The notes under the pieces: generated by a model
Database searches by the model: none
The model's input: only the letters and a program-made list of their open reading frames with translations
What the model was told of the DNA's origin: nothing
Program-made: the position numbers and the translations under genes
In this document: piece after piece, positions 7,861 through 27,615 of the stretch
Position numbering within the stretch: position 1 is the first letter of the stretch
Layout: each line of letters opens with the position of its first letter
Source of the DNA: Saprospiraceae bacterium
GTDB taxonomy: Bacteria; Bacteroidota; Bacteroidia; Chitinophagales; Saprospiraceae
Direction of reading: 5' to 3'
Length of the DNA: 34,575 bases
NCBI GenBank assembly: GCA_020847915.1
Contig: JADLBE010000037.1
Span: 1 to 34,575 of the forward strand

Positions 7861-7911
7861 CCACAGCTCCCATTGTATTTTCCAAAAACAATTTTAAAAA
7901 TTGACCATACC

Positions 7912-10354: not shown

Positions 10355-13300
10355 ATGAACAGAAACTCTACTTTAAAATTAAGGCGGGCAACAGTAGGTT
10401 TGTCGCGGATGTTTTCCGCCATCCTGTGCCTGTTGTTTTTGGTTTCCCTGGCGGGCAGTATCCATGCCCAAACCTTTACGGTTTCAGGAACCGTACTTTC
10501 CACAGAAGACAACCAACCTCTTATAGGTGTAAGCATCAAAGAAAAAGGTGTTGGAAACGGCGCCATGTCCGATGCGAACGGAAGGTTTAAACTGGAAGTA
10601 GCCTCTCCCGATGCCGTGTTGGTGTTGCGGTACATCAGCTACACGGAACAGGAAATACCGGTTGCAGGCCAGTCCGAACTGTCGCTTACGATGAGCCCGG
10701 AAGCCAACCTGTTGCAGGACGTGGTAATCACGGGTTACAAAAAAGAGATCCGGAGCGACATTTCCTCGTCCATCTCGTCCATAAAATCCAAAGACATTGA
10801 AAACCTGGTGGTTGTGGGCATCGATCAGGCGTTGCAGGGACAAGCGCCCGGGGTGATGGTTACCCAGGTCACTGGTTCGCCCGGCGACGACATCGCAGTG
10901 CGCATACGGGGCGCCGGTACCCTCGGGAACAACAACCCACTTTACGTGATCGATGGTATACCTACGACGGGCAACATCAACATGTTTTCCCCCTCCGACA
11001 TCGAGTCGATCGAAATCCTGAAAGATGGCGCCGCAGCCGCCATTTACGGCGCCCGTGCCGCCAACGGTGTGGTGCTGATTACCACCAAACGTGGCAAAGC
11101 AGGCAAACCTGTCTTTCAGTTTGATGCCTATGCAGGCGTTCAAAATGCCATCAAACTGCCCGAACTGCTCAATGCTGAAGAGTTTCTCGCCATCCGCAAC
11201 GAGGCCATCACCAATGCCAACGAACTGCGAAATCCGGCCAACCAATTGCCAACGTACGATCCGGCCATCCTCGACACCCTGCCCGACAACGACTGGCTCG
11301 ACATGGTGTTCAATCCGGCGCCCATACAACACTATGCTTTGTCGGCCATGGGTGGCAGCGACAACAGCAGCTTTTACCTCTCCGGCGAATACCACAAGCA
11401 GGATGGCATTTTTAAAGGACAAAGTTTCGACAAGTACCAGGTGCGTTTCAACGGCGACATCGGCAACAGTTGGTTTAAGGTGGGCAACAGTTTGTCCTTT
11501 TCCCACACCGACCGCAAAGTTATCGGCGCCTCGGGCGACGGTTACGGCGCGGGCAACGAGCTCAGCGGTGTGCGTTATGCCCTCATCGCTGCGCCACTTT
11601 TTCCAAGCCAGTATGCCGACGGCACCTACGTTAATGTAACGTCCGAACTCGGCGAGCCCAACCTTTTTGGCGACGGCAACCCCAACCCGATTGTATTTAT
11701 CAACAACACCGACTGGCACATCAAACGTTACCGCATGTTTGGCAACGTGTTCGCCGAATTCAAACTCATGGAAGGGTTGAAATTGCGCACGACCCTTGGC
11801 GGCGACATGCAGTTTGAACAGGAAAAACTGTTCAAGGAATACCTTTCTCCCGCCATTTACGACCCCACCTCGCTCAACGAGGGAAGGGTGTTTAACCAAA
11901 CCCTTGTTTGGAACAATACGGCGGATTTTCAACGTACTTTCGGCAACCACCGCGTGTCGGGCCTGCTGGGCATGGAGGCCATCCAAAACCACACCGACTA
12001 CCTGGGAGCGTCGGCCAGCAATTTCATCCGCACCGACCCACTTTTCCGCTACATCGATGCCAGCAACCCTGAATCGCTCGAAAACATCGGCGCTTCCGGT
12101 ATTGCCACCGAATGGGCGTTGTTGTCCTACTTTGCCCAGGCAGGTTATTCTTATCAAAACAAATACGTGATCGGAGCAGCCGTGCGCCGGGATGGTTCCT
12201 CGAGGTTCGGCGAAAACAACCGCTGGGGTGTTTTTCCTTCGGTTTCCGCAGCATGGAACATCTCCAACGAGCACTTTTTTCAAAATGTCCGGTTTGTCTC
12301 CGCCCTGAAAATCCGGGCAAGCTGGGGACAACTCGGCAACCAGGAAATCGGCAATTACCCGTACAGCTCCATGGTGAGCACGGGCAATTACGTGTACAAC
12401 TTCGGCGGCCAGATCGTTACCGGGGCAACCATTGTAGAAACAGGCAATGAAAACATCAAATGGGAAACCAGCACCCAAACCAACCTGGGTCTGGACGTCA
12501 GCTTTTGGGAAGACCGCTTGTCGATGACCCTCGACGTGTACCGCAAACAAACCGACGACATCCTCGTACGGGTTCCTGTTCCACAGGCCGGAGGATCGGT
12601 GCGGCCACCTTTTGTAAATGCCGCTTCGGTGGAAAACAAAGGCATAGAGCTTGGTTTGTCCTACCGAAACAGGATTGAAAAATTCAACTACACCATCGGC
12701 GCGAACATCGCTTCCGTGCGCAACGAAGTGTTGTCCATCGCCAACGGCGAACCCATTTTGGGCGGCTTCGGCTTGTCCGACGGCCCGCTTACCAGAACCG
12801 AACCCGGATACGCGGTTGGTTCGTTTTTCCTGTACGAAATGGACGGTATTTTCCAGACACAGGAAGAAATCGACGCCAGTCCCTTCCAAACGACCTTCAC
12901 CCGTCCGGGCGACGTCAGGTTTGTGGATGTAAACGGCGACAACATCATCGACGACAAGGACCGCAAACATACGGGCAACCCGTTCCCCGACTTCACCTTC
13001 GGCATCAACCTGGGTTTCAACTGGAACAATTTTGATTTTTCAACCCTGATTCAGGGCATCCAGGGCAACGACGTGTATTTCCTCTACGGAAATTTCGCCT
13101 ACGAAACACAACTGCGCGGTTTCAACTCCTATGCCGACATCCTCGACCACTGGACGCCCACCAACACCGGCGCCAGCATCCCGAAAGTGAGTGTGGACGA
13201 CCGCAACGGCAACCGCCGCGCATCCACCCGTTTCCTCGCCGACGGCTCCTACACCCGTTTCCGAAACATTACCCTCGGGTACAACTTTAAGGACTTGTTC

Positions 13301-13510
13301 AACTGGAACAACCTCGGAAGTTTCCGATTTTACGTCACCGCACAAAACGCCTTCACCTTCACCAAATACCCGGGCATGGACCCTGAAATTCAGGCCAATG
13401 CCAACGATACCCGCGGATTGGGCCTTTCGTCCGACCTCGCAGTGGGCATCGACTGGGGTACGGTTCCGGCTCCGCGCACATTCATCGCAGGTGTAAACAT
13501 GACCTTTTAA
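10355..13510 (+). CDS. susC: SusC/RagA-family TonB-linked outer-membrane transporter
   Basis: The 1051-residue glycan importer has a signal peptide at 1-38 (cleavage near SIHA-Q) and a CarboxypepD_reg-like domain at about 42-115 (VSGTVLSTEDNQPLIGVSI). A TonB-box-like stretch, QDVVITGYKK, is at 121-130. The plug (about 135-250) has the SusC hallmarks LYVIDGIP (196-203), IEILKDGAAAAIYGARAANG (219-238) and VLITTKRGK. A barrel of about 800 residues follows, ending AGVNMTF. SusC imports oligosaccharides captured by its SusD lid, whose gene begins 26 bp downstream. This is the first gene of the PUL, divergent from the AraC regulator. The symbol denotes the family, not a proven starch system. Confidence 0.96.
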   Translation: MNRNSTLKLRRATVGLSRMFSAILCLLFLVSLAGSIHAQTFTVSGTVLSTEDNQPLIGVSIKEKGVGNGAMSDANGRFKLEVASPDAVLVLRYISYTEQEIPVAGQSELSLTMSPEANLLQDVVITGYKKEIRSDISSSISSIKSKDIENLVVVGIDQALQGQAPGVMVTQVTGSPGDDIAVRIRGAGTLGNNNPLYVIDGIPTTGNINMFSPSDIESIEILKDGAAAAIYGARAANGVVLITTKRGKAGKPVFQFDAYAGVQNAIKLPELLNAEEFLAIRNEAITNANELRNPANQLPTYDPAILDTLPDNDWLDMVFNPAPIQHYALSAMGGSDNSSFYLSGEYHKQDGIFKGQSFDKYQVRFNGDIGNSWFKVGNSLSFSHTDRKVIGASGDGYGAGNELSGVRYALIAAPLFPSQYADGTYVNVTSELGEPNLFGDGNPNPIVFINNTDWHIKRYRMFGNVFAEFKLMEGLKLRTTLGGDMQFEQEKLFKEYLSPAIYDPTSLNEGRVFNQTLVWNNTADFQRTFGNHRVSGLLGMEAIQNHTDYLGASASNFIRTDPLFRYIDASNPESLENIGASGIATEWALLSYFAQAGYSYQNKYVIGAAVRRDGSSRFGENNRWGVFPSVSAAWNISNEHFFQNVRFVSALKIRASWGQLGNQEIGNYPYSSMVSTGNYVYNFGGQIVTGATIVETGNENIKWETSTQTNLGLDVSFWEDRLSMTLDVYRKQTDDILVRVPVPQAGGSVRPPFVNAASVENKGIELGLSYRNRIEKFNYTIGANIASVRNEVLSIANGEPILGGFGLSDGPLTRTEPGYAVGSFFLYEMDGIFQTQEEIDASPFQTTFTRPGDVRFVDVNGDNIIDDKDRKHTGNPFPDFTFGINLGFNWNNFDFSTLIQGIQGNDVYFLYGNFAYETQLRGFNSYADILDHWTPTNTGASIPKVSVDDRNGNRRASTRFLADGSYTRFRNITLGYNFKDLFNWNNLGSFRFYVTAQNAFTFTKYPGMDPEIQANANDTRGLGLSSDLAVGIDWGTVPAPRTFIAGVNMTF

Positions 13511-13536
13511 CCATCGAACCGCAAAAGAACTTTACC

Positions 13537-14967
13537 ATGAAATTACATCCACCATTCTATGTTCTGATGCTTTTGACGGTTTTTTCCTGTCAGAGTATCC
13601 TGGATAAAGAACCCATTGCGATTCTGGACGCCGGTTCGTTTTTTCAAACGGAGGACGATGCCATCCAGGCCATGAATGCGGCTTACCAGCCACTCTTGTT
13701 CAGCAACAACAACAACAACTTTTATTGGGCTTTCGCCGTAATCACGTCCGATGAGGCGATCACAGGCGGCGACGGCTCCCGTCCGGGCCTCAATGAGCTT
13801 GACGCCTTTACCTACACGCCCCGCACCGAAGAGTTCAACGATTTTTGGAAACTTCAATACGCCGGCATCACGCAGTGCAACCTGGTGCTCGAACATTTGC
13901 CGGACATTGAGATGCCGCAAAGCAAACGCGACCAGATCACCGGCGAAGCGCTTTTTCTGCGTTCGTATTTTTATTTCCTGCTCACCCAGGTGTACGGCGA
14001 TGTGCCACTTTTCACCTCGCTCATTCCACCCGACGAACTAAAAGTGCCCCGGACACCTACGGCAGACATTTACGCACAAATCAAAACGGATTGTGAACGG
14101 GCAGCCACATTGTTGCCGGTGCAGTTTACGGCTGCGGAAGCCGGTCGACCCACCAAAGGCGCTGCCTATGCTTTGGCAGCAAAAACCGCACTTTACGGAA
14201 AGGAATGGGAAAAAACCCTCGAATACGTCGGCAAAGTGAAGGAACTGGGCGTGTATTCCCTCATGCCGGACTACCAGGACAATTTCCGTGAAAACACCCA
14301 GAACAACATGGAATCCGTTTGGGAAATACAACACACCAACCTGGAACTGGGCGTGGGTAATTTCCTCAACCAGTGGTGGGCATCCAAAAAATACGAAGGT
14401 TACGGCTTTGCCGATGTTACGGCCGAGTACACGAACAGTTTCGAAGCGGACGACCCACGCCGCAAGTTTACCATTGCAAAAAACAACGAGGACTACTTTG
14501 GTGTGGTGTACAAAAACTCGTTTTCATCCACCACGTTCGGCGTGCGCAAATACCTGCAGGCCAAGGACTCCGTGACGCAAAAAGCCGACGGCGACATCAA
14601 TTACACGGCCATTCGTTACGCCGAGGTACTTCTTTGGGAAGCAGAGGCTCTGACCGAGCTGGGCCGCATTATGGATGCGCAAATCCCACTTGAAGTGGTG
14701 CGCGCCCGTGCCCGTGCCCAGGCTACCGACCCGGCCACGGCACTTCCGCCGGTAACCACCACCGACCAGCAAACCATGAGGGAGGCCGTTCGAAACGAAC
14801 GCCGCGCCGAATTGGGTTTTGAAATGCACCGGTTTTTCGACCTCGTGCGCTGGGGCATTGCAGCCCAGGTTTTGCCTGGATTCCAGGTAGGTAAACACGA
14901 AGTTTTCCCTTTGCCGCAAACAGAAATGGACCTCAATCCGGCCCTGATGCAGAATCCCAACTATTGA
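13537..14967 (+). CDS. susD: SusD/RagB-family surface glycan-binding lipoprotein
   Basis: The 476-residue lipoprotein has a signal peptide with lipobox TVFSC and lipidated C18. It carries SusD hallmarks: FFQTEDDAIQAMNAAYQPL near 30-48, LRSYFYFLLTQVYGDVPL near 139-157 in the TPR-like helical core, and RNERRAELGFEMHRFFDLVR near 420. It forms the hinged lid over the SusC barrel and binds oligosaccharide on the cell surface. The gene follows susC at 26 bp and is 22 bp ahead of the next gene, all in one operon. The length is a little short but normal for the family. The glycan cannot be read from the sequence. Confidence 0.96.
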   Translation: MKLHPPFYVLMLLTVFSCQSILDKEPIAILDAGSFFQTEDDAIQAMNAAYQPLLFSNNNNNFYWAFAVITSDEAITGGDGSRPGLNELDAFTYTPRTEEFNDFWKLQYAGITQCNLVLEHLPDIEMPQSKRDQITGEALFLRSYFYFLLTQVYGDVPLFTSLIPPDELKVPRTPTADIYAQIKTDCERAATLLPVQFTAAEAGRPTKGAAYALAAKTALYGKEWEKTLEYVGKVKELGVYSLMPDYQDNFRENTQNNMESVWEIQHTNLELGVGNFLNQWWASKKYEGYGFADVTAEYTNSFEADDPRRKFTIAKNNEDYFGVVYKNSFSSTTFGVRKYLQAKDSVTQKADGDINYTAIRYAEVLLWEAEALTELGRIMDAQIPLEVVRARARAQATDPATALPPVTTTDQQTMREAVRNERRAELGFEMHRFFDLVRWGIAAQVLPGFQVGKHEVFPLPQTEMDLNPALMQNPNY

Positions 14968-14989
14968 ATTTTTTTCAAATAAGATATCC

Positions 14990-17900
14990 ATGAAGCGATT
15001 GCTCCGTGTAGTTTTCGGCACGCTGAACCTTTTATTTACATCAGGGTGGCTCCTGGCACAGGCTGGGCAAGTGACTGTTCCCCGCGTGGAACTGATGCCC
15101 AGCCAGCCATCCCCCTACAACATGCGCAACTGGAGTCAGGTGGCCATGCGTTACGATTCCTTTGTGTACGATTTGGCAAAAACGGGTCAGTACCTGCCTT
15201 TGACTTTCCTCGGGCCTTCGGGAATCAATTACCCTCAAAACCCCACGTACCGTATGCATACGTATGTGGGCACCAATTCGCCGTTTGGCAACGAAGCCAT
15301 CAATGTTTTGCCTTCTTTGGTAAGCGCCTCACTTGTCGGCGCCGACAAAAGCAACCAGTTCGGTCAAAACTGGCTGCTGTTGAGCCAGGATTTTTTCAAC
15401 AAAAACAACGGACAAAACATCTACCTCAACAATCCCGGGGCAACCAGTGGGGGAGACTGGTGGTACGACCTGATGCCCAACGTGTTTTTTTACCAGTTGT
15501 ACGACCTCTATCCCGATCTGGGTGGTGATTCGGATTTTCAGTTTACCGCCATTTCCGACAGATTCCTCGAATCCGTACGCGCCATGGGTGGCAACGATGC
15601 GCCCTGGAACCCTGCATACATGAATTACCGCGCCTGGAATTTCCAAACCATGCAACCCAATGCCAACGGTGTACCCGAGCCCGAAGCGGCCGGAGCTTAT
15701 GCCTGGGTGTTGTACAACGCCTGGAAAACAACCGGAAATCCGGAATACCTTAAAGGCGCCGAGTGGTCGATGGAGTTTTTGAACGAATGGACCACCAACC
15801 CTTCCTACGAACTTATGCTGCCATACGGCACCCTTACGGCGGCAAAAATGAATGCCGAACTCGGCACGAAATACGATGTTGAAAAAATGGTCAATTGGTC
15901 GTTCGACCGCGGTCCGCTGCGCGGCTGGGGCACCATTGTAGGTACCTGGGGCGGTTTCGACGTGTCGGGACTGGTAGGAGAGGCCAACGACAACGGCAAC
16001 GATTATGCCTTCCAGCTCAACGGTGTGCAACAGGCGGCGGCTTTGGTCCCGATGGTGCGTTACGACAAACGGTATGCACGTGCCATCGGCAAATGGGTGC
16101 TCAACCTCGCCAACGCAACCCGCCTTTTTTATCCCGGTTTTTTACCTTCCAACTTACAGGACGCCTCCGCCTGGAGCACCGCCAACGATCCGCAGCAGGT
16201 GATGGGTTACGAGGCCTTGCGCGAGTTGTGGCAGGGACAATCGCCCTTTGCCACCGGCGACGCCCTTCAGGGAGGCTGGGCGGCTACCAACCTTTCCTTG
16301 TACAGCACGTCGTCGATAGGTTACCTGGGTTGCCTGGTTGAAAAAACCAATGTGGATCAAATCCTCAGGCTGGACCTGTTAAAAACCGATTTTTACGGTG
16401 CGGAAGCCTATCCGACTTACCTACTTTACAACCCCTATCCTACAGCCAAACTGGTGCAGGTAGACGGCGGCAGCAATCCTGTGGATGTATACAATGCACT
16501 CACCGAAACTTTTGTGCAGCAAAACGTATCCGGCACGTTGAGTCTGGCCATTCCTGCCAACCAGGCCATCCTGATCACCCTTGCTCCGGCAGGAGGCGTT
16601 GTGACCTACGATAAAAACCGCATGCTGATCGATGGGGTGGTGGTGGATTACGACCAGCACGTGTTGCCTTTTTCCGCAACACCACGCATCAAAGCGCTGG
16701 CTGCCGTAAAAAATCCGCTGGAAATCGGCGATTCAACGGCTGTTTACGCCACCGTGGAAGACACCGATTCCGGCAACATCACCTACACCTGGAGCGTCAC
16801 TTCCGGCGCCATCAACGGTACCGGTGCAACGGTCAACTACCTGCCGCCTGCTGTTTCGGGCAACCCTGAAATCAAACTGATTGCCACCGATCCGGAAGGC
16901 AACGCCGATACGGCCACCTTGCTGTTGTCGGTGGTACCTGAAATAAACGATGCACCGCAAATTGTATCCATTGAAAAAAATCCGGCCTATGTGGCGCCGG
17001 GCGGCGTGGTACAACTCACTTGTGTGGCCACCGATGCCAACAACGATCCATTGAATTATGTGTGGTCGGCTGCTTCGGGATTGCTCAGCGGCAGCGGAAG
17101 TTCGGTAACCTGGACCGCTCCGGTGACCCAGGGTATTTACACCATCAGCGTGGTCGTTTCCGACGACGAAGGGCTGACAGCGCAGACCACAACAACCGTT
17201 TTGGTCAAAAATTTCACGGCCGGTTCGGGCGACATCATTGCCGATTATCCTTTTACCGGCAATGCCAACGATGTGAGCGGCAACCAGTTGAACGGTACGT
17301 CCAACGGCGCGCTCCTCGTGCCTGGCATCGACGGCACGCCGCAAAGCGCGTATTATTTCAACGGCGGCTCACAGCATATTTTGGTGGCCAACGACCCCTT
17401 GCTCAACTTTCAGGACGGCATTACAGTAAGTTGCTGGTTTAAGGCGAATGACTTGCCGGAAAAAGAGTCTTTCCTGCTTTCGCACGGCAGTTGGCAAAAC
17501 CGATGGAAAATATCGATCACACCGGAAAAGCACCTGCGCTGGACGGTCAACACACTCAACACCGTAGCCGATCTTGATGCAACGGTAACCCTGGAAACAG
17601 ACAGTTTTTACCACGCAGTTTTGACCTACGACGGGTCATTGCTGGCCATTTACCTGAATGGGGAATTGCAAACGTACAAGTTTCTGACTGGAAAGATCCG
17701 TACCACCTCGGTCCCGTTGCTGATGGGACAAATGTTGCCAGGACAACCGGAATACAATTTTAAAGGCGTTATCGACGCCGTGAAAATATTCGATTACGCC
17801 TTGGTGCCAGATGCCGTAGAGCTGCTTTACGAGCAGGAAACTTCACCTGCTTATGAACCTCTGGCGGGTACAAAGTTGGGGTTGTATCCCAACCCTGTTG

Positions 17901-18109
17901 CTGAAATACTTACGGTACAATGGCCCGGCACTGTCGGAGCCGAAATAAACGTGGAGGTTTTTGACCTCAACGGACGAATGATGATACAGCGGCAAACCAC
18001 AGGAAACGAAACCATGGATATTGATGTAAGCACTTGCAGGTCAGGTATTTATGTTGTTGTTCTGCGTTCGGTTCAAGGTTTGGTTGCTTCGCGGTTTGTA
18101 AAAATTTGA
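14990..18109 (+). CDS. T9SS-secreted protein of unknown catalytic-like family with PKD-like and LamG modules
   Basis: The 1039-residue protein has a signal peptide at 1-24. Its domain at about 27-545 belongs to no family I recognise but is clearly paralogous to the lipoprotein at 25894-27615. Shared motifs are WWYDLMPNVFFYQLYDLYP (about 157-175), GWG.....W.GFDVSGL (about 310-327), MVRYDKRYARAIGKW (about 356-370) and DFYGAEAYPTYLLYNPY (about 466-483). The paired-helix, aromatic-rich pattern followed by a beta-rich tail resembles alpha/alpha-toroid carbohydrate enzymes (inference). Two PKD-like domains (about 566-740) and one LamG domain (about 746-950, with WQNRWKIS) follow. The end is a T9SS type A sorting domain (about 958-1039, LGLYPNPV...SGIYVVVL) for surface attachment or release. 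It is third in the PUL and the leading candidate for its depolymerase. Confidence 0.8.
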   Translation: MKRLLRVVFGTLNLLFTSGWLLAQAGQVTVPRVELMPSQPSPYNMRNWSQVAMRYDSFVYDLAKTGQYLPLTFLGPSGINYPQNPTYRMHTYVGTNSPFGNEAINVLPSLVSASLVGADKSNQFGQNWLLLSQDFFNKNNGQNIYLNNPGATSGGDWWYDLMPNVFFYQLYDLYPDLGGDSDFQFTAISDRFLESVRAMGGNDAPWNPAYMNYRAWNFQTMQPNANGVPEPEAAGAYAWVLYNAWKTTGNPEYLKGAEWSMEFLNEWTTNPSYELMLPYGTLTAAKMNAELGTKYDVEKMVNWSFDRGPLRGWGTIVGTWGGFDVSGLVGEANDNGNDYAFQLNGVQQAAALVPMVRYDKRYARAIGKWVLNLANATRLFYPGFLPSNLQDASAWSTANDPQQVMGYEALRELWQGQSPFATGDALQGGWAATNLSLYSTSSIGYLGCLVEKTNVDQILRLDLLKTDFYGAEAYPTYLLYNPYPTAKLVQVDGGSNPVDVYNALTETFVQQNVSGTLSLAIPANQAILITLAPAGGVVTYDKNRMLIDGVVVDYDQHVLPFSATPRIKALAAVKNPLEIGDSTAVYATVEDTDSGNITYTWSVTSGAINGTGATVNYLPPAVSGNPEIKLIATDPEGNADTATLLLSVVPEINDAPQIVSIEKNPAYVAPGGVVQLTCVATDANNDPLNYVWSAASGLLSGSGSSVTWTAPVTQGIYTISVVVSDDEGLTAQTTTTVLVKNFTAGSGDIIADYPFTGNANDVSGNQLNGTSNGALLVPGIDGTPQSAYYFNGGSQHILVANDPLLNFQDGITVSCWFKANDLPEKESFLLSHGSWQNRWKISITPEKHLRWTVNTLNTVADLDATVTLETDSFYHAVLTYDGSLLAIYLNGELQTYKFLTGKIRTTSVPLLMGQMLPGQPEYNFKGVIDAVKIFDYALVPDAVELLYEQETSPAYEPLAGTKLGLYPNPVAEILTVQWPGTVGAEINVEVFDLNGRMMIQRQTTGNETMDIDVSTCRSGIYVVVLRSVQGLVASRFVKI

Positions 18110-18144
18110 AAACAATTTCTCAATACAATTTAAACTAAAAAAAT

Positions 18145-21100
18145 ATGAAACGCAATGTTTACCTGCTGTTCATGCTTGTCGGTTGGCTGTTGTCAGCGGT
18201 TGGCCTGAACGCGCAAACACCTGTGGCGTATTATGACTTTAACGGTGACGCCAAGGACCAGTCCTCGTTCGCCAACCATGCTGCCGTAAATGGCGCAGCA
18301 TTGACACAGGACCGCTTCGGCTGGTCCAACAGTGCTTTCAGTTTTGACGGCGTACAGGATGGCATAACCGCCCCGAACTCCGCCCCGCTCAACTCTCCCA
18401 ACGCGACGATCAGCTTTTGGATCAAGGTTAACGAATTGCCCGCACAGGGCGAAGTATTCCTGCTTTCCAACGGAGGCTGGCAGGAGCGCTGGAAAATCTC
18501 CATGCCTTCACATGGCAAACCGGTGTTTACGACACACCCCGGTTTTTGCTGCAGCGACATGGACAGCGGTACGCCGCTCACCGTTGGTGTTTGGACACAC
18601 GTCGTGATGGTTCACGACGGCGTTAAAGACATCATCTACTTTGATGGTGTTCAGGTGGCTGAAAAAAATGTAGCCGGTGCACTCGACAACACCGTTTACC
18701 CGTTCGGCATCGGTTACAATCCGATCGACAACGCCAATTTTTTCAACGGTGCACTTGATGAAGTGATGATTTTCGACCAGGCTTTGAGTGCCGGACAAAT
18801 TCTGACGCTTTACAACCTGCAAAGCGCGGAACCACCCATCGCACAAGGCAAAGTTGCTTCTTACGCCTTCAACGGAAACGGTTTTGATGCAACCAGCTTT
18901 GCCAACCACGCCGATGTGCTCACTGCTGACATCACAACCGACCGTTTCGGTTACGGCAACAGTGCCCTGGCGCTCAACGGCACCTCCAGTGAAGTATCGG
19001 CTTCGAATGCCGAACAGCTCAATTCGGGCGCCGCTACGGTGAGTTTCTGGGTAAAACTGAACGAACTTCCCGCCAACGGCGAAGTTTTCCTGCTGTCGTA
19101 TGGCGGCTGGCAGGAACGCTGGAAAATTTCCCTGCCCATGCACGGCAAACCGGTGTGGACAACCAACCACAGCAACGGCATTTCCGACATGGATTCAGGT
19201 GACGGTAACGAACTGCCGGTAGGCGTTTGGACACATGTTGTGATGGTACATGACGGCGCCAAGGACAAAATTTTCATCGATGGCACCCTCGCGGCTGAAA
19301 AAGTGGTTGCAGGTACCCTGAACAGCACCACCAAACCCCTGGGCATCGGTTACAACCCGATCGATGGCGGCAACTGGCTGAATGGTTCGCTGGATGACAT
19401 CGAACTTTACAACTTCGCACTTTCCGACGGCGACATCGCTGCCTTGTACACCGCGCAATCCACCTTCCCCGGAACGGCGGACAACCTGGTGGCCAGCTAC
19501 AGTTTGAACGGCAACGGCACCGACGATACGCAATTCGGCAATACGGCCATCCTCGACGCAGAAGCAACTGCCGTGACCAACCGTCATGGCTGGGGCGGCA
19601 ACGCGATGGACGGACATGCCACGGCTGAAAACTCCGCTGCCCTGCAATCGGACTTCACAACCATCAGTTTCTGGATCAAACCAGCATCTTTCCCTGCCAG
19701 TGGCGAGGTATACCTGCTGTCGAACGGCGGCTGGCAGGAACGTTGGAAAATTTCCATGCCCAACCACGGCAAACCTGTTTTCACCACCCACTCCGGCGGC
19801 GCATGCTGCAGCGATCTCGACAGCGGTACGCCGTTGACCCTGGACGCGTGGACACACGTGGTGATGGTACACGACGGGGCTCAGGACATCATTTATTTCA
19901 ACGGCGTTAAAGTGAATGAAAAAAACACCGCAGGCGCTTTGGACAAAACCAACCACCCGCTGGGCATTGGTTACGATCCGATCGACAACGGAGGGTTTTT
20001 CGATGGTTCGCTCGACGATCTTCAGATTTACAACAACGCTTTGTCGGCAGCTGAAGTGGCTGCACTTTTCGCAGCCCAAAATGCTGCTCCGGTGGTACCC
20101 GGCAACCTGGTTGCTGATTACAAAGCCAGCGGCAACGGCAACGACGCAACCGCCTACAACAACCACGCTACCGTACTTGGTGCGCAACTCACCAAAGACC
20201 GTTTTGGAAAATCCAACAACGCTTATGCCTTCAACGGCGTAGACCAGTCTTTGGTAGCAGCCAATTCGCCACAACTGAATTCGGCCAACACGACCATCAG
20301 TTTCTGGATCAATCCGGCTTCCTTCCCGGCCAGCGGCGAGGTATACATCATGTCGAACGGTGGCTGGCAGGAGCGCTGGAAAATTTCCATGCCCAACCAT
20401 GGCAAACCCGTGTTCACCACCCACTCCAACGGCGCATGCTGCAGTGACCTCGACTCGGGTACACCCCTGACGATCGGTACGTGGACACACGTTGTGATGG
20501 TGCACGATGGCGCCAAGGACATCATCTATTTCAATGGTGCTAAGGTCAACGAGAAAAACACCGTCGGTGCTTTGGATCCAACCGCTTCGCCACTCGGTAT
20601 CGGTTTCGACCCGATCGACAACAACTACTTCTTCCACGGCTCGATGGATGAGGTCCGGATTTACAATACCGCACTTTCCGACGCTGAAATCGCCGCTTTG
20701 TACACAGCACAAAGCACGCCTCCGGTGGTTACCGACAACGAAGCACCCTGTGCTCCGCTCAATCTGACGGCAAGTGTAACCTTTACCAACGTGTTGCTTT
20801 CGTGGCTGCCCGGTACCGACAACGTGGGTGTAACAGCCTACAATGTTTACCAGGACGGTGCACTTGTTGCAACATTGCCAGGTACTTCGTTGTATGTTTC
20901 GGGACTTACACCTTTGACCGATTATGTTTTCGGTGTATCGGCCGTAGATGCAGAAGGCAATGAATCCCTGCAAACCACGGTGAATGTAACCTCCGGTCCG
21001 GACGAAACACCCGACACCACACCACCAACCGTACCCGGCAACCTTTCGGGCACGGCTTCGTCCAACTCCGTGCTGCTGACCTGGGATGCGTCCACCGACG

Positions 21101-22236
21101 ACACACAGGTAGCCGGTTACGTCATCTTTGTGGATGGTGTTTATTTCGATTCGGTAGGCGCCCAAACCTTGTCCGTACTCATTGGTGGACTGGATACGGA
21201 AACCCCTTATTCGTTTGAAGTGTATGCCTTCGACCTTGCGGGCAACAACTCTGCATTCGCTGAGGTTACCCTGAGCACCACCGAGCCCATCGATACCGGT
21301 GAACCGGGCCTCGTGGCGCATTATCCGTTCGACGGAAACGCCAACGATGCTACACCGTATGCCAACCACGGCGCCATCGGCGGCAACCCGGTGTTTGAAA
21401 ATGCCACCCACCCGGGCGGCGGACAAAACATCAAGTTCGACGGCGACCAGGATTCTGTTTTGGTACCCAATGCGGTTCAGTTGATCTCCGATTACCAGAC
21501 GGTTTCATTCTGGATACGTGTAGACGATACCAACCTTGCAGATGCGGAAGCTTATGTGATGGACTTCGGTCACTGGGACCAGCGCTGGAAAATTTCGCTG
21601 CCACAACACTTGAAAATCGTGTTTACAACCAACGGCAACAACGTACAGTTCGCAAACTTCATTTCCGACATGGACAGCGGCGACGGCAACGAAATGGTGA
21701 AAACCTTTTGGTGGTATGTGACCATGGTCCACGACGGCACGAGCAACATCATTTACGTAAACGGTCAGCAGGCAAACATCAAACCTGTGAATACCGAGCT
21801 CAACAGCACGTCGCGCCCGCTTTGTTTCGGCAACAACCCCATCGAGGGCGGTCAGTATTTCATTGGTGCTTTGGACAACGTGAAAATTTACAACAAGGCA
21901 CTCACCGCCGGTGAAATCCAGCAGTTGTTCAATACCGGTACTACCGGCGTTGAAGACCTTGCCGGCAACCTGTGGAGAAGCCTCGTACTCAACGTTGCAC
22001 CCAACCCAACCACCGACCGTTTGGTCATTTCACACACTTTCGACGGCAAACAGCCGCTTTTGTTGCGTGTATTTGACCTTCAGGGCCGTCAGGTAGACCA
22101 GTACAACTACGACAAAAATGAAGTGCCGGCCGATCAGCTTATGTTGCGCACGGGCAATTACCCACAAGGAACATACCTGCTCAACTTTGTTTTGGGCGGC
22201 AAAAACCTGGGCACAATGAAGTTTGAAAAAAACTAA
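18145..22236 (+). CDS. Surface protein with five LamG domains, two Fn3 domains and a T9SS sorting signal
   Basis: The 1363-residue protein has a signal peptide (1-24). Four LamG/concanavalin-like domains of about 206-212 residues start near 28, 234, 446 and 653. Two fibronectin type III domains (about 867-955 and 959-1045), a fifth LamG domain (about 1053-1265) and a T9SS type A domain (about 1281-1363, VAPNPTTDRLVIS) follow. Each LamG carries a W.[QD][EQ]RWKIS core and a SD[ML]DSG loop; copies 1, 3 and 4 add a CysCys pair before it. No catalytic domain is visible, so it probably binds glycan on the cell surface (inference). LamG 3 and 4 are also very close at DNA level, which points to recent duplication or gene conversion. 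The same LamG type occurs in the previous gene, suggesting a shared ligand. Confidence 0.88.
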   Translation: MKRNVYLLFMLVGWLLSAVGLNAQTPVAYYDFNGDAKDQSSFANHAAVNGAALTQDRFGWSNSAFSFDGVQDGITAPNSAPLNSPNATISFWIKVNELPAQGEVFLLSNGGWQERWKISMPSHGKPVFTTHPGFCCSDMDSGTPLTVGVWTHVVMVHDGVKDIIYFDGVQVAEKNVAGALDNTVYPFGIGYNPIDNANFFNGALDEVMIFDQALSAGQILTLYNLQSAEPPIAQGKVASYAFNGNGFDATSFANHADVLTADITTDRFGYGNSALALNGTSSEVSASNAEQLNSGAATVSFWVKLNELPANGEVFLLSYGGWQERWKISLPMHGKPVWTTNHSNGISDMDSGDGNELPVGVWTHVVMVHDGAKDKIFIDGTLAAEKVVAGTLNSTTKPLGIGYNPIDGGNWLNGSLDDIELYNFALSDGDIAALYTAQSTFPGTADNLVASYSLNGNGTDDTQFGNTAILDAEATAVTNRHGWGGNAMDGHATAENSAALQSDFTTISFWIKPASFPASGEVYLLSNGGWQERWKISMPNHGKPVFTTHSGGACCSDLDSGTPLTLDAWTHVVMVHDGAQDIIYFNGVKVNEKNTAGALDKTNHPLGIGYDPIDNGGFFDGSLDDLQIYNNALSAAEVAALFAAQNAAPVVPGNLVADYKASGNGNDATAYNNHATVLGAQLTKDRFGKSNNAYAFNGVDQSLVAANSPQLNSANTTISFWINPASFPASGEVYIMSNGGWQERWKISMPNHGKPVFTTHSNGACCSDLDSGTPLTIGTWTHVVMVHDGAKDIIYFNGAKVNEKNTVGALDPTASPLGIGFDPIDNNYFFHGSMDEVRIYNTALSDAEIAALYTAQSTPPVVTDNEAPCAPLNLTASVTFTNVLLSWLPGTDNVGVTAYNVYQDGALVATLPGTSLYVSGLTPLTDYVFGVSAVDAEGNESLQTTVNVTSGPDETPDTTPPTVPGNLSGTASSNSVLLTWDASTDDTQVAGYVIFVDGVYFDSVGAQTLSVLIGGLDTETPYSFEVYAFDLAGNNSAFAEVTLSTTEPIDTGEPGLVAHYPFDGNANDATPYANHGAIGGNPVFENATHPGGGQNIKFDGDQDSVLVPNAVQLISDYQTVSFWIRVDDTNLADAEAYVMDFGHWDQRWKISLPQHLKIVFTTNGNNVQFANFISDMDSGDGNEMVKTFWWYVTMVHDGTSNIIYVNGQQANIKPVNTELNSTSRPLCFGNNPIEGGQYFIGALDNVKIYNKALTAGEIQQLFNTGTTGVEDLAGNLWRSLVLNVAPNPTTDRLVISHTFDGKQPLLLRVFDLQGRQVDQYNYDKNEVPADQLMLRTGNYPQGTYLLNFVLGGKNLGTMKFEKN

Positions 22237-22241
22237 ATTTT

Positions 22242-22404
22242 AGCTGAAAGCTGAAAGTTGAAAGTGGAAAGCTGAAAGTGAAAAGTGGAAAGCTGAAGGT
22301 GGAAAGTTGAAAGTGGTGCTCTACACTATCAACTTTCAGCTTTCAACTTTTTACTTTTTACTTTCAACTTTCAGCTTTCAACTTTCAGCTTTCAACTTTC
22401 AGCT
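22242..22404. repeat. Near-palindromic heptamer array between the two halves of the PUL
   Basis: About ten tandem 7-mers of the type GYTGAAA (22242-22316) are followed, after a spacer of 13 bases, by about ten of the inverse type TTTCARC (22330-22404). The arms can pair over about 75 bp with few mismatches, and the outer ends AGCTGAAAG / CTTTCAGCT match exactly. It fills almost the whole gap between the five-LamG gene and the GH130 gene. In RNA it would make a long hairpin without a clean U tract. Confidence 0.9.
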
Positions 22405-22417
22405 AAATTCCAACCTC

Positions 22418-23458
22418 ATGGCTGAACGTTTTACAACAAATCCCATCATCAACACCAGGGACATTGCGCCGAGTCGGCCGGATTTGGTGGTGGAGTGTAT
22501 TTTGAATCCGGGTGTTTTTCATTTTGAAAATAAAATTTGGTTGTTGTTGCGGGTAGCCGAGCGACCTGTTCAAAAAGAGGGTGTTGTTTCTTTCCCGATT
22601 TTGAAAGAAGACGGCAGCATGGAAATCCTGGCATTTGAAAAAAACGATCCCAACCTCGACCTTACCGACGTACGTATGGTGGGATACAAGGGGAAAACGT
22701 ACCTGTCCACCATATCGCACCTGCGCCTGGTGTGCAGCGATGATGGTGTACATTTTTACGAACCGTCGGATTTTCCCACAAAGATATTTGGCAACGGTCC
22801 ACTGGAAACTTTTGGCATCGAAGACAGCCGGGTGAGTTTTTTTGAAGGGCAATACCACCTCACCTACACCCAGGTTTCGGAAAGTGGTGTGGGCGTGGGT
22901 TTGATGCGTACCCGTGACTGGCAGACTTTTTCCCGTGAAGGCATGATTTTGCCGCCACACAACAAAGACTGTGCGCTTTTTGAAGAAAAAATTGAGGGCC
23001 ACTACCATTGTTTGCACCGCCCTTCGGGCATCGATTTGGGTGGCAATTTCATTTGGATCGCACAATCGCCCGACCTCCTGCACTGGGGTGGGCATCAATG
23101 CATTTTGAGGACACGTGAGGGCTGGTGGGACAGCGCGCGCATTGGCGCCGGGGCTGCGCCCATCAAAACCAGCAAAGGTTGGCTGGAGATTTACCATGGC
23201 GCCGACCAACACCACAGGTACTGTTTGGGTGCTGTATTGCTCGACCTGAAAGATCCTTCCAAAGTACTTAAACGTTCACACGATCCGCTTTTTGAGCCGG
23301 ATGCTCCTTACGAGCAAACGGGCTTTTTTGGCAATGTGGTGTTCACCAACGGACATCTGGTGAATGGCGATGAAATTACCATGTATTACGGCGCCTCGGA
23401 TGAAGTGGTTTGCGGCGCAAAATTGTCGATTGATACTATTTTGTCGAAACTAGGGTAA
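22418..23458 (+). CDS. GH130-family glycoside phosphorylase or hydrolase
   Basis: The 346-residue cytoplasmic protein has no signal peptide and a five-bladed beta-propeller pattern. It shows the GH130 motifs GIEDSR (133-138, with the likely general acid D136), NKDCALFEEKIEGHY, LHRP (199-202), then SPDLLHWGG and GAGAAPIKTSKGWLEIYHGA. Known GH130 enzymes phosphorolyse or hydrolyse beta-mannosidic linkages. The H200-R201 pair in LHRP is of the kind that binds phosphate in the phosphorylases, so phosphorolysis is favoured (inference). The chosen ATG at 22418 follows the heptamer array; an upstream in-frame ATG at 22307 would translate the repeats. An MFS transporter gene follows at 26 bp, as expected for uptake and intracellular cleavage of a disaccharide or oligosaccharide. 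Confidence 0.88.
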   Translation: MAERFTTNPIINTRDIAPSRPDLVVECILNPGVFHFENKIWLLLRVAERPVQKEGVVSFPILKEDGSMEILAFEKNDPNLDLTDVRMVGYKGKTYLSTISHLRLVCSDDGVHFYEPSDFPTKIFGNGPLETFGIEDSRVSFFEGQYHLTYTQVSESGVGVGLMRTRDWQTFSREGMILPPHNKDCALFEEKIEGHYHCLHRPSGIDLGGNFIWIAQSPDLLHWGGHQCILRTREGWWDSARIGAGAAPIKTSKGWLEIYHGADQHHRYCLGAVLLDLKDPSKVLKRSHDPLFEPDAPYEQTGFFGNVVFTNGHLVNGDEITMYYGASDEVVCGAKLSIDTILSKLG

Positions 23459-23484
23459 CCGTTCATTCCTTCGAAAACAAAACG

Positions 23485-24729
23485 ATGTTTCAAAAACTGA
23501 CCAAAGAAATTCAATTTTTCAACGAACATCCGCTCGGCATGCGGATGTTGTTGCTGACCAACCTTATTTACGCTTTGGTGATGCCCATCATCGAGCTTTT
23601 TGTAGGGGCCTACATCATGCGCAATTCCAGCGACCTCTCTTTGGTGGTCATTTTTCAATTGGCCGTTTACACAGGCATTCCGGTGACCTTTGGCATCAAC
23701 GGCTGGTTGCTCAACCGCATGCCGATTGCGAGGTTGTACTCCTTTGGGATGCTGCTGAGTGGCATCTCGATGTTTGCCATGATGTCGCTCGACAACCTGG
23801 ATACGTTGGGTGTGTTTTTGGCCGGTTTGATCATGGGACTGTCCTACGGCTTTTTTTGGGCCAACCGCGATTTGCTGGCACTCAACACCACCCACGATAA
23901 AAACCGCAACTATTATTACGGTATTGAAACGTTTTTTTACACCATGACCGGCATTGCGGTGCCGCTGGCTGCAGGAGCATTCATTGCCGCTACGGACAAA
24001 AACGGATGGTTTGGCGGCAACACCAATGTGGCGTATTACTGGCTTACAGGTGCTGTTTTTGCACTTTCGGTTTTTGCCTCCATACTTGTCCACCGCGGAC
24101 AGTTTCAAAACCCCAAACGGGCGCCTTTCCTGTTTTTTAAGTTCGACAAACTTTGGAACAAAATGCTTGGGCTCGCTTCGCTCAAAGGTGTGGCGCAGGG
24201 ATACATCGTAACGGCGCCTACCATGCTGGTGATGAGTTTGGTGGGGAAAGAAGGCGAACTTGGCCTTATCCAGGGCGTAGCAGCGTTTGCCTCCGCCATA
24301 TTGCTGTACGTTTTGGGAAGAACTTCGGCGCCTCAGCACAGGCTGTTGATCTATTTGATCGGTTGTTCTCTGTTTGTGTTGGGCGCCATTTTTAATGCCG
24401 TTTTTTACTCGGCATTCGGCGTGATTCTTTTCATTTTATGCCTTTTGTTTGCCCGCCCTTTGCTCGACATCGCGTATTTTCCCATACAGTTAAAAGTGAT
24501 CGATGTGGTTGCCGCCAAAGAAGGCCGCAACGAGTTTTCCTACATTTTTAACCACGAATTCGGCCTGTTTCTCGGTCGTTTGTTCGGATGTGGTTTGTTC
24601 ATCATTCTGGCGCGGTACGTAAGCGAATATGTCGCTTTGCGGTATGCTTTGCTGATGATTGCTGTGGTGCATTTTATGGGTTATTTTATGATGAAAGTTG
24701 TTGTTCGTGAACTCGCAAAAGAAACTTAG
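23485..24729 (+). CDS. MFS transporter
   Basis: The 414-residue inner-membrane protein has about twelve hydrophobic helices in two halves of six, with a basic central loop near 205-230 (HRGQFQNPKRAPF). Features include GLIMGLSYGFFWANRD in helices 4-5 and FARPLLDIAYFPIQLKVID in the second half. It probably moves the oligosaccharide or disaccharide released in the periplasm into the cytoplasm for the GH130 enzyme 26 bp upstream (inference from context). Its stop is 2 bp before the next ATG, which indicates translational coupling with the oxidoreductase. The substrate and coupling ion are unknown. Confidence 0.88.
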   Translation: MFQKLTKEIQFFNEHPLGMRMLLLTNLIYALVMPIIELFVGAYIMRNSSDLSLVVIFQLAVYTGIPVTFGINGWLLNRMPIARLYSFGMLLSGISMFAMMSLDNLDTLGVFLAGLIMGLSYGFFWANRDLLALNTTHDKNRNYYYGIETFFYTMTGIAVPLAAGAFIAATDKNGWFGGNTNVAYYWLTGAVFALSVFASILVHRGQFQNPKRAPFLFFKFDKLWNKMLGLASLKGVAQGYIVTAPTMLVMSLVGKEGELGLIQGVAAFASAILLYVLGRTSAPQHRLLIYLIGCSLFVLGAIFNAVFYSAFGVILFILCLLFARPLLDIAYFPIQLKVIDVVAAKEGRNEFSYIFNHEFGLFLGRLFGCGLFIILARYVSEYVALRYALLMIAVVHFMGYFMMKVVVRELAKET

Positions 24730-24731
24730 GG

Positions 24732-25883
24732 ATGTACAACATTGGCATCATCGGTTATGGTGGGTTTGGTAAATTTTTGCACAATGCCTGGAACCAGCTC
24801 GGGGAAGTCCGTGTGGTTGCTGTTGCAGAAAAAGATGCTGCTAAAATGCAGGGTCTTGATGGGGTGAAAACCTACACCAACTGGCACGACATGTTGCACG
24901 ATCCGGAGGTTGATGTTGTTGCCATCGTCACCGAACCTTCTACCCACGAAACCATCGCCACGGCCTGTCTTGAAGTGGGCAAACACATACTGATTGAAAA
25001 ACCGCTCGCCGTTAACATGGCCGATGCGCAAAAAATCCTGGAAATACGCGACCAAACAGGCATGGTGGCAGGCATCGATTTTATCATGCGGTTCAACCCG
25101 CTTTTGGAAGCCATACGAGATCTCACGCAGAAGGGTGTTTTTGGAAAATTGCGCCGCGTTGACGTAGAAAATTACGCGCAGGACGAAGCACTTTTGCCCA
25201 GCCATTGGTTTTGGGACATCGGGCGTTCAGGAGGTATTTTGGTGGAACACGCAGTACATTTTATTGATCTTGTTCATTTTATTTCCTCTGCAAAAGTGTT
25301 GGCTGTCAACGGGTTAAAACACAATCGCAATCCGGGACAGGAAGACCAAATCATGGCCAACGTACTGTATGATGACGGACTCATTGCAACGCATTACCAC
25401 GCTTTTACACGTCCCGGTTTTTTTGAAGTCACCAAAATCAAGCTGGCTTACGACCTGGCCGATGTTGAACTTCACGGCTGGATTCCCCTGTCGGCAGAGG
25501 TGAAAGCACTGGTCGGTCCGGCCACCAGAACTTCCCTTTTTGAACATCCTTTGTTTAAAATGAATACCCTGACGCCAATAGAAAAGGCTTCCGATGAGTC
25601 GAGGCCTGCGGGCTGGGGACCTTTGGACAGCTCCAAAGACGAAACTCGGAAAACGGTGCGTTCAGGCGGAATTGCATACGAAGCCAATGAAATTGTGCAG
25701 GGTATTCTGAGCCTTGGCAAAACCAAACAGGAGGTGTACATCGATTGCGTGCAGGCGTCTCTGTTGGATGTTTTGGCCAAAATCAGCGATCCCAACCACA
25801 ACCTCACTGCACCTCTGGAGGCCGGTCTGGTTAGTCTGGGAATTGCCGTAACCGCATCCGATTCGGCCCGGAGTTATGTTTAA
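24732..25883 (+). CDS. Gfo/Idh/MocA-family oxidoreductase
   Basis: The 383-residue NAD(P)-dependent sugar oxidoreductase has an N-terminal Rossmann fold with GIIGYGGFGKF (about 5-15) and the family EKP motif (IEKPLAVN, about 94). The C-terminal substrate domain has SGGILVEHAVHFIDL near 173-187, the counterpart of the usual GG...D.G.H..D motif. Here Glu stands in the Asp position and Ala in the second Gly position. No signal peptide is seen, so it is cytoplasmic. It starts 2 bp after the MFS stop and probably works on a product of the GH130 reaction or on a modified sugar in the glycan (inference). The exact reaction cannot be told from sequence. Confidence 0.9.
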   Translation: MYNIGIIGYGGFGKFLHNAWNQLGEVRVVAVAEKDAAKMQGLDGVKTYTNWHDMLHDPEVDVVAIVTEPSTHETIATACLEVGKHILIEKPLAVNMADAQKILEIRDQTGMVAGIDFIMRFNPLLEAIRDLTQKGVFGKLRRVDVENYAQDEALLPSHWFWDIGRSGGILVEHAVHFIDLVHFISSAKVLAVNGLKHNRNPGQEDQIMANVLYDDGLIATHYHAFTRPGFFEVTKIKLAYDLADVELHGWIPLSAEVKALVGPATRTSLFEHPLFKMNTLTPIEKASDESRPAGWGPLDSSKDETRKTVRSGGIAYEANEIVQGILSLGKTKQEVYIDCVQASLLDVLAKISDPNHNLTAPLEAGLVSLGIAVTASDSARSYV

Positions 25884-25893
25884 GCAAATAGCC

Positions 25894-27615
25894 ATGAAAA
25901 AAATACAAATCCTTGCCCTTTTGATGTTGCTCCTGGCGGCATGCAACCGCCAAACGACGTTTACGCCCAACGCCATGCCGGTGGCTCAACGTCCGATTCC
26001 ACGTGTGGAAAAAATGCCCAACCACCCGAAGCCGTATGCGTGGAAGGACTGGAAACAAACAACCATCGATTTCGACAAATACGTGTTTGACCTGAACAAA
26101 AAAGGCGAACACTTGCCCCTGGTTTGGCTCGACAAAGCAGGTCGGAATTTCCCGGAAACAACCTTTGGCATGTACACGGCCATCGGCGACGTGCGCATGG
26201 GGCCGGCCGTAAACAACGGCGAAAACCACGAGGCGCTCGGGGCCATGGGCGCCGTTTTGAGCGCTGCCTTGGTGGGCATCGACAAACGCAAACAGGACGG
26301 CAACAACTATGTGGGCATGTTGCGCAATTATTTCAACCGCGACAACGGCTGGAACGTCATCATGAATTTTACCAACAAAGGCGCACACATCGGCGGTGGC
26401 TACGGCAACGATTTTTGGTACGAAGTACACAACAACGTGTTGTTTTACTGTGTGGCCGATCTGTACCCGGAAGAAAAAGATTTTGAAAACATTCAACGTA
26501 CCATCGCCGACCAGTTTTACCGCTCCGATTCGGTGATGGGCAGCAATTACAGTTATTCCTTTTTTGATTTTAAAAACATGAAACCGGGTACGAGCCACAT
26601 TCCCACACAGGAAGACGTGGCAGGAGGTTATGCGTTTGTGTTGTATTCCGCGTGGGTTAAATTTGGGGACGAAAAATACCTGCGCGCCGCCAAAAACGCC
26701 ATGAACGTGCTTTACAACCAGAAGGAAAACCGGTTTTACGAAGCTATGATGCCTGTGGCCGCTTACGTCGGCGCACGTATGAACGAAGAGGTGGGTACCA
26801 CATACGACATCCAGCGTTTCCTCGACTGGACCTTCGACGGCACCGCAGTGGGGCGTGAAGGGTGGGGCGTTTTGGCCGACAACTGGAACGGTTACGATGT
26901 GAGCGGACTGGCCGGCAGCACCGTGCACAACGGCGGTTACGGTTTTTTGATGAACACGTTCGATCTTATGATGCCGATGGCTGCTATGGTGCGTTACGAC
27001 CAGCGCTACGCGCGTGCCGTGGGCAAATGGGCCCTCAACGCCTCCAATGCCGCCCGTTTTTGCTACCCGTATGAAATGCCGGATTCGCTTCAGGCCATTC
27101 CGAAGCTCAAAGCGGTAACGGGAAAAGTGATTGCTTACGAAGGCGTGATCAAGGAGTCCGTGTACCCTGAGTTCAAAGGCATTTCGCCGTTTGCGCAGGG
27201 CGACGGACCGTTGTGGCACCCGGGCATGCCGCAGGAAACCATGTTTTCGGTGTATGGAAGTGGTCATGTGGGTTTGTTCGGCGGCACGTTGCAAAAAACC
27301 GACGTGCCTGAAATCCTGCAAATCGATTGCCGGGCCACCGACTTTTACCGCCGCGATGAGGCATACCCGACGTATTTGTACTACAATCCTTACAACACGG
27401 TCAAAGCCGTAGAGATCAATCTTGGCAGCCAAAAAGTGGATGTTTACGACACCGTCAGCCGGACCATTCTGAAACGCGATGTCAGCGGCAATCTCCGGGT
27501 TGATGTACCGATGGACGGCGCCCGGGTGTTGGTTTTGATTCCGGCGGGAAAAAAATACGTCGTGGAAAAAGGTGTTTTAAAAGCTGGCGGGGTAGTGGTT
27601 GATTACAGGTATTGA
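25894..27615 (+). CDS. Lipoprotein paralogue of the secreted PUL protein, unknown catalytic-like family
   Basis: The 573-residue protein has a lipoprotein signal peptide (MKKIQILALLMLLLAAC, lipidated C17), which decides the start over an ATG 18 bp upstream. The rest is one domain, colinear with residues 27-545 of the protein at 14990-18109. It shares GYGNDFWYEVHNNVLFYCVA (about 169-188), GWGVLADNWNGYDVSGLAG (about 323-341), MVRYDQRYARAVGKW (about 365-379) and TDFYRRDEAYPTYLYYNPY (about 482-500). It ends in a beta-rich stretch (VDVYDTVSRTILKRDVSGNL). The conserved Trp, Tyr, Asp and Glu positions suggest a sugar-binding cleft (inference). It lacks PKD, LamG and T9SS modules, so it is probably membrane-anchored and acts on shorter products. 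It is the last gene of the operon. Confidence 0.82.
   Translation: MKKIQILALLMLLLAACNRQTTFTPNAMPVAQRPIPRVEKMPNHPKPYAWKDWKQTTIDFDKYVFDLNKKGEHLPLVWLDKAGRNFPETTFGMYTAIGDVRMGPAVNNGENHEALGAMGAVLSAALVGIDKRKQDGNNYVGMLRNYFNRDNGWNVIMNFTNKGAHIGGGYGNDFWYEVHNNVLFYCVADLYPEEKDFENIQRTIADQFYRSDSVMGSNYSYSFFDFKNMKPGTSHIPTQEDVAGGYAFVLYSAWVKFGDEKYLRAAKNAMNVLYNQKENRFYEAMMPVAAYVGARMNEEVGTTYDIQRFLDWTFDGTAVGREGWGVLADNWNGYDVSGLAGSTVHNGGYGFLMNTFDLMMPMAAMVRYDQRYARAVGKWALNASNAARFCYPYEMPDSLQAIPKLKAVTGKVIAYEGVIKESVYPEFKGISPFAQGDGPLWHPGMPQETMFSVYGSGHVGLFGGTLQKTDVPEILQIDCRATDFYRRDEAYPTYLYYNPYNTVKAVEINLGSQKVDVYDTVSRTILKRDVSGNLRVDVPMDGARVLVLIPAGKKYVVEKGVLKAGGVVVDYRY

Follow-up and report, generated by a model that had tools for sequence, protein, structure and literature searches.

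A candidate family of alpha/alpha-toroid glycoside hydrolases that accompanies GH130 enzymes in Bacteroidota and may act on beta-1,2-mannan-like glycans

Which enzyme opens the polymer in a polysaccharide utilisation locus that encodes no recognisable depolymerase? This question is raised by an operon of a Saprospiraceae bacterium (assembly GCA_020847915.1), located on the plus strand at positions 10355-27615 of a 34,575-nucleotide stretch of contig JADLBE010000037.1, which was analysed as a whole and is called the window here. The operon contains, in this order, genes for SusC, SusD, the protein P0001, a LamG-rich protein of the type IX secretion system (T9SS), a GH130 enzyme (P0004), a transporter of the major facilitator superfamily (MFS), a Gfo/Idh/MocA oxidoreductase and the protein P0002, a paralogue of P0001. 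With SusC adjoining SusD, a glycan enzyme and a regulator, all recognised by Pfam, it is a polysaccharide utilisation locus. The GH130 enzyme, probably cytoplasmic, is the sole recognisable sugar-cleaving enzyme of the locus. Pfam detected no known endo-glycosidase or lyase in 18 open reading frames (ORFs) of the window (P0001-P0009 less the two paralogues, P0010 and others, with short ORFs left out), and ten ORFs outside the operon likewise showed none. The original prediction, made from the DNA letters alone, had described such a locus with binding and uptake genes and a GH130, and had named the two paralogues as candidate depolymerases of an unrecognised family. Pfam confirmed SusC, SusD and GH130, and the MFS, Gfo/Idh/MocA and AraC-type genes confirm or extend this inventory.

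We propose that both paralogues belong to an unnamed alpha/alpha-toroid family of glycoside hydrolases and break down a beta-1,2-mannan-like glycan so that it can enter a phosphorolytic pathway; this is a tentative reading, to which we give slightly less than an even chance. P0001 (ORF 14990-18109, 1039 residues) and P0002 (ORF 25876-27615, 579 residues, N-terminus MFKQIAMKK...) are 39% identical over 553 positions (E 2e-122) and have a domain of about 530 residues in common (predicted: about 520). The second in-frame methionine of P0002, at 25894, is also a plausible start. The PKD, Laminin_G_3 and T9SS sorting domains foreseen for P0001 were all found above the cut-offs of Pfam and NCBIfam. 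For the lipid anchor assigned to P0002 the lipobox LLAAC was recognised by eye, but the Pfam model LPAM_1 stayed below its cut-off. Two of the predicted motifs, GWG.....W.G[FY]DVSGL and EAYPTYL.YNPY, are present as described, whereas the first has to be corrected from W[WF]Y[DE] to D[WF]WY[DE] (DWWYD or DFWYE).

The shared domain belongs to no accepted family in Pfam, NCBIfam or the PDB sequences, so that the family is indeed unrecognised at this level. C5-epim_C was the only Pfam lead (in P0002 E 0.031 over 32 residues, 14.2 bits versus a cut-off of 23.3), and it gave short matches only, in 5 of 27 family members with a best E of 9.7e-4. The D-glucuronyl C5-epimerase family (PF06662) produced no domain-wide profile match and an hhalign probability of 2.6% against a single homologue; GH127 (PF07944) produced no match at E up to 1 and 0.7% against 8 homologues; the GH144-type glycoamylase family (PF10091) produced no Pfam match and 0.24% against 10 homologues. 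In the positive control the two clades of the family found each other at 100%. By sequence, the known toroid families were ruled out as the identity of the domain by the Pfam, NCBIfam and PDB searches and the profile comparison. The source genome encodes two family members at E up to 0.001, both in the window. At least 565 relatives occur among 593 candidate stretches of one genome collection, and in a sample of 395 genomes from the phylum the family profile matched 21, including two at no better than E 1e-4. Judged against Pfam, NCBIfam, PDB sequences and open-licence papers, the proteins probably form a new glycoside hydrolase family, with a fold and a kind of locus that are both known.

The AlphaFold model of P0002 has a predicted local distance difference test score (pLDDT) of 93.8 and a predicted template modelling (TM) score of 0.92. 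It was based on 58 aligned sequences (alignment A2), namely 56 of 80 loci and the two window sequences; 24 loci were dropped, among them L059 and L061, whose match range is interrupted by a stop. In the model, alternating helices of an alpha/alpha toroid are followed by a C-terminal beta-sandwich. Foldseek gave 18 PDB matches for the model with E no higher than 0.001, of which 16 were GH127/GH146 beta-L-arabinofuranosidases, one of these being classed by its title. The best match had an E of 3.6e-6, and TM-scores ranged from 0.24 to 0.37 at about 10% identity; GH78-like, GH9, glucose-2-epimerase, GH116 and GH94 entries stood lower among the 50 matches listed. The predicted toroid is therefore supported by the model at the level of the fold, not of the family.

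Conserved acidic residues had also been predicted, and five of them (E119, E289, E422, D443 and D489 of P0002, corresponding to E102, E274, E408, D424 and D467 of P0001) are identical in all 98 homologues, near-copies included. D179 of P0002 is identical in 97 of 98, and positions 183 and 247 (E183 and D247 in P0002) hold D or E in every row; the counterparts of these three in P0001 are D156, D160 and E232. According to the secondary structure of the model, the acids at 119, 179, 183, 247 and 289 lie at or just before the starts of helices 120-132, 180-196, 248-263 and 291-306. In toroid enzymes the active site is found at that end of the inner helices. The conserved acids are candidates for the active site. 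No His or Arg is identical in at least 97% of the 98 rows, and since the usual lyase machinery involves conserved His/Arg, lyase chemistry is disfavoured.

The neighbourhood suggests the substrate, as the link between the family and GH130 supports the mannose-containing glycan suggested originally. In the loci of the best 80 of the at least 565 relatives, a GH130 cluster was found 69 times, MFS 71, SusC 50 and SusD 47 times, followed by a hybrid two-component regulator (36), GH13 (26) and Gfo (7). Where at least 4 kb of upstream sequence was available, GH130 was present in 65 of 69 loci, and all 69 GH130 genes lie on the same strand as the family gene with a median gap of 1305 bp. For 12 T9SS-type loci from the bacterial family of the window, GH130 occurred in 8 of the stretches fetched, and a ninth genome (G012) has a different GH130 nearby, together with ATP-binding cassette (ABC) importer genes. 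Such an importer seems to take the place of MFS in several T9SS-type loci; Pfam identified a solute-binding protein in L115 and permeases in L113 and L116, and the others were labelled by similarity to these. GH130 was absent from the approximately 39 kb of L119 with L186 and L187, and from L121 and L123, the latter being a short contig; these loci were treated as uninformative.

Across 150 genomes, the family and this GH130 occurred together in 17, the family only in 4, GH130 only in 2 and neither in 127 (Fisher p 9e-17, kinship ignored; G114, at E 4.9e-4, was dropped as too weak). The two genomes with GH130 only (L184, L185) carry two GH130s and ABC importer genes, and the stretch read gave no match to SusC or SusD, as expected for oligosaccharide scavengers. 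Among eight distant loci, GH130s of other subtypes adjoin the family gene in six (L172, L175-L179); L173, with none in 16 kb, and L174, whose family gene was not recovered by the ORF caller, are uninformative. GH2 proteins were confirmed in the six of these loci tested (L172, L173, L175, L176, L178 and L179), three of them with mannosidase-type Ig domains.

The partner in the window, P0004, matched Glyco_hydro_130 with 150.3 bits (Pfam cut-off 26). At E up to 0.001 the source genome contains one further GH130 gene, on contig C212 (G000:C212:9016-9930, in a 481-residue frame). P0004 aligns with Uhgb_MS at E 1.4e-155 over 343 residues and with Lin0857, a beta-1,2-mannobiose phosphorylase, at E 7.5e-85 (PMC8950772). 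One lysine of BT3780 is reported to be a key residue for beta-1,2 specificity, and two glutamates have been put forward as possible bases in the GH130 hydrolases (PMC4599007). Mapped by hand, the lysine corresponds to K220 of P0004 and is invariant in the 10 GH130s aligned, and the glutamates are absent from P0004, which has Pro239 and Gly280 where the enzyme of locus L180 has Glu. With 65.3 bits versus 550 on the BT3780 beta-1,2-mannosidase model, P0004 does not match the BT3780 type. The strongest pointer to the linkage is the L180 enzyme, which reached 641.8 against this curated cut-off of 550; its neighbours are SusC and SusD, ROK and MFS proteins and the family member that diverges most. 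Four GH130s tested from distant loci scored best, all below cut-off, on NF050092, named only mannobiose phosphorylase, or NF052550, a beta-1,2-mannobiose phosphorylase model. One distant GH130 compared with the PDB was nearest to beta-1,2 enzymes, and no beta-1,4 enzyme was among its matches with E of 1e-20 or lower. The family is thus accompanied by phosphorylase-type GH130s in most loci and by a hydrolase-type GH130 in one, both with beta-1,2 features, and the target linkage is probably beta-1,2-mannosyl.

Beta-1,2-mannosides occur in yeast, trypanosomatids and several O-antigens (PMC4264767), and beta-1,2-mannoside phosphorylases act on exogenous yeast mannan (PMC8950772). Yeast alpha-mannan is disfavoured as substrate here because neither GH76 nor GH92 was matched in the source genome, which at 97.6% completeness in 534 contigs does not amount to proof of their absence.

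A tree built from 98 sequences gave full support to the split between the T9SS type (about 1040 residues, 29 rows) and the short type (68 rows), and the divergent short protein L142 of locus L180 branched between them; P0001 and P0002 represent two old clades. The T9SS-secreted member should be extracellular. Among 83 short ORFs, 53 have a lipobox, with no, one or two acids at +2 to +7 in 38, 12 and 3 cases, 25 fail the lipobox pattern (by eye about six resemble lipoproteins and the other 19 seem to have plain Sec signals) and 5 remained unplaced, two of which are edge fragments of the long type. By comparison, 45 of 50 SusD proteins fit an earlier lipobox pattern, mostly with two to three acids. 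In this phylum, surface lipoproteins are recognised by a run of acids that follows the lipid cysteine. As the lipoprotein clade lacks such a run and 19 of 78 placed short members seem to carry plain Sec-type signals, it is probably periplasmic. The prediction that both paralogues are candidate depolymerases still fits P0001, which should be extracellular, but two surface depolymerases are not supported: P0002 is probably periplasmic.

The pathway that we propose is inferred in several respects: that the family hydrolyses its substrate and cuts it internally, that the linkage is beta-1,2, where each protein acts and in which order. The T9SS-secreted member would cut the polymer outside the cell, and the fragments would be imported by SusC/SusD. 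In the periplasm they would be trimmed by the lipoprotein member, and the MFS protein would move the small oligosaccharides into the cytoplasm, where GH130 would phosphorolyse them to mannose 1-phosphate. The simplest set would be one depolymerase and one phosphorylase on beta-1,2-mannan.

Several points weigh against this reading. Loci L060, L065, L080 and L081 lack GH130 despite ample upstream sequence, as does G125 in about 39 kb read. The distant GH130 L178:1691-2608 is hardly closer to beta-1,2 than to beta-1,4 enzymes, and the choice of endo over exo action is guesswork based on secretion and the LamG modules. P0004 itself lies below the cut-offs of all GH130 equivalog models in NCBIfam (396.3 versus 550 on NF050092; 207.6 versus 450 on NF052550), and its nearest solved relative, Uhgb_MS, is a mixed-linkage mannoside synthase that also acts on alpha-1,2-mannobiose (PMC8950772). 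Furthermore, the alpha-glucosidase-like GH13 cluster of 26 of the 80 loci (L085:14402-16030 and 25 others; the tested member is nearest to oligo-1,6-glucosidases) is unexpected for a pure mannan and suggests that the natural glycan contains alpha-glucose. Together with the mixed-linkage activity of Uhgb_MS it weakens the case for a pure homopolymer. Both observations would suit a new glycoside hydrolase family for another beta-mannose-containing glycan, either a mannan with both alpha and beta linkages or an alpha-glucose-containing repeat of an O-antigen or exopolysaccharide; the family would cut the backbone and GH130 would remove beta-mannosyl units from the imported repeat. The presence of beta-1,2-mannose in several O-antigens (PMC4264767) points in the same direction. 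However, many loci hold no other candidate backbone enzyme and L180 has a BT3780-type GH130 partner, and we regard such a glycan as somewhat unlikely.

A toroid enzyme of other chemistry, be it a polysaccharide lyase, an epimerase or a phosphorylase, on the same or a uronate-bearing glycan would be in line with the weak C5-epim_C matches and with a fold common to many toroid enzymes. The lack of invariant His/Arg and the low profile probability for the C5-epimerase homologue argue against it, no uronate genes were seen by Pfam in the window operon, and secretion makes phosphorolysis by the family improbable, so that this alternative appears quite unlikely. It is very unlikely that the family is a carbohydrate-binding or otherwise non-catalytic toroid protein presenting the glycan to SusC/SusD: extra binding proteins are common in such loci and P0001 does carry LamG and PKD modules, but the conserved acids sit at helix starts and many operons would then be left without any extracytoplasmic enzyme. 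The family might also be classified in CAZy already without a Pfam or NCBIfam model, as novelty was judged from Pfam, NCBIfam, PDB sequences and open-licence papers, not from CAZy/dbCAN; none of the sources searched contained a match, and we consider this unlikely.

Known systems resemble the proposed beta-1,2-mannan pathway in part. GH127/GH146 beta-L-arabinofuranosidases are the nearest solved folds to the P0002 model but differ in the low TM-scores, identity and profile probability given above. In systems of GH144-type endo-beta-1,2-glucanase and GH94, a secreted toroid endo-enzyme feeds a cytoplasmic inverting phosphorylase. These would work alike; the family has no Pfam match to PF10091 and a negligible profile probability, and GH130 takes the place of GH94. 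In the source genome, two PF10091 genes on a single contig (G000:C529:26812-32546 and 74225-79959) appear to be identical copies with their order inverted, which would be either a duplication or an assembly artefact. The GH130 beta-1,2-mannosidases BT3780 and BACOVA_03624 have the beta-1,2-mannose target in common with our proposal, and the L180 partner fits the BT3780 model; these enzymes are propellers from yeast alpha-mannan loci (PMC4599007), whereas the family is a predicted toroid in a genome without GH76 or GH92 matches. Salvage of beta-1,2-oligomannan in Thermoanaerobacter likewise combines import, by an ABC system, with two GH130 phosphorylases (Teth514_1788/1789), but its cluster holds GH5 and GDP-mannose genes, and the excerpt of PMC4264767 names no family member. 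PMC8626586, as excerpted, has no bearing on the family.

Cytoplasmic beta-1,2-mannoside phosphorylases are known, and the family could be the missing first step of polymer digestion. In open-licence papers (bioRxiv not included) we found neither an endo-beta-1,2-mannanase nor an enzyme that supplies these phosphorylases with oligosaccharides from a polymer. It is possible, at somewhat less than even odds, that the missing endo-beta-1,2-mannanase is this toroid family with its extracellular T9SS and periplasmic clades, forming complete beta-1,2-mannan loci with GH130 across Bacteroidota. If true, this would assign a function that can be tested directly to a family of at least 565 relatives unnamed in both Pfam and NCBIfam. 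It would also provide a tool with which to cut the beta-1,2-mannans of protists and yeasts, and a lead to the producers of beta-1,2-mannan where such bacteria live.

Table 1. Genes of the operon and its divergent regulator, in window coordinates.
Feature	Position	Strand	Basis
AraC-type regulator, divergent from operon	9192..10172	-	Pfam HTH_18, HTH_AraC
SusC-like TonB-dependent transporter	10355..13510	+	Pfam TonB_dep_Rec_b-barrel, Plug, CarbopepD_reg_2
SusD-like glycan-binding lipoprotein	13537..14967	+	Pfam SusD_RagB, SusD-like_3
P0001: family domain (about residues 27-555), PKD, LamG, T9SS tail; candidate extracellular depolymerase	14990..18109	+	
LamG-rich, fn3, T9SS protein	18145..22236	+	five Laminin_G_3 stretches (Pfam)
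P0004: GH130, phosphorylase type	22307..23458	+	Pfam, NCBIfam, PDB sequence matches
MFS transporter, proposed oligosaccharide importer	23485..24729	+	Pfam MFS_1
Gfo/Idh/MocA oxidoreductase	24732..25883	+	Pfam
P0002: family domain and lipoprotein signal; candidate periplasmic hydrolase	25876..27615	+	

The true start of P0004 is probably near codon 38 of the frame in Table 1. The LamG-rich T9SS protein accompanies the secreted clade in many of its loci as a conserved neighbour. The Gfo/Idh/MocA gene sits between the MFS and lipoprotein family genes. In seven loci of Flavobacterium and Pedobacter type, L085:11895-14366 among them, the family gene has as its neighbour a conserved secreted protein of about 820 residues, which had no Pfam, NCBIfam or PDB sequence match; the model of this 823-residue partner (pLDDT 61.3) was too poor for interpretation. 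Beside GH130 and ABC importers we observed a protein of about 420-450 residues (L077:6256-7578, L172:5647-7008, L184:3615-4871, L185:6659-7918 and L189:1702-3018), which is related to PDB entry 7tem (putative exported protein YPO2471, E 7.6e-85), had no Pfam or NCBIfam match where tested and also occurs without the family; it is possibly another mannoside protein. PADLOC gave no match, and a promoter and terminator scan (17 versus 14.3 and 37 versus 30.9 in shuffles) was not used. A peptidase C39 ABC transporter followed by an HlyD-type protein at window positions 5665-9180 resembles peptide export systems.

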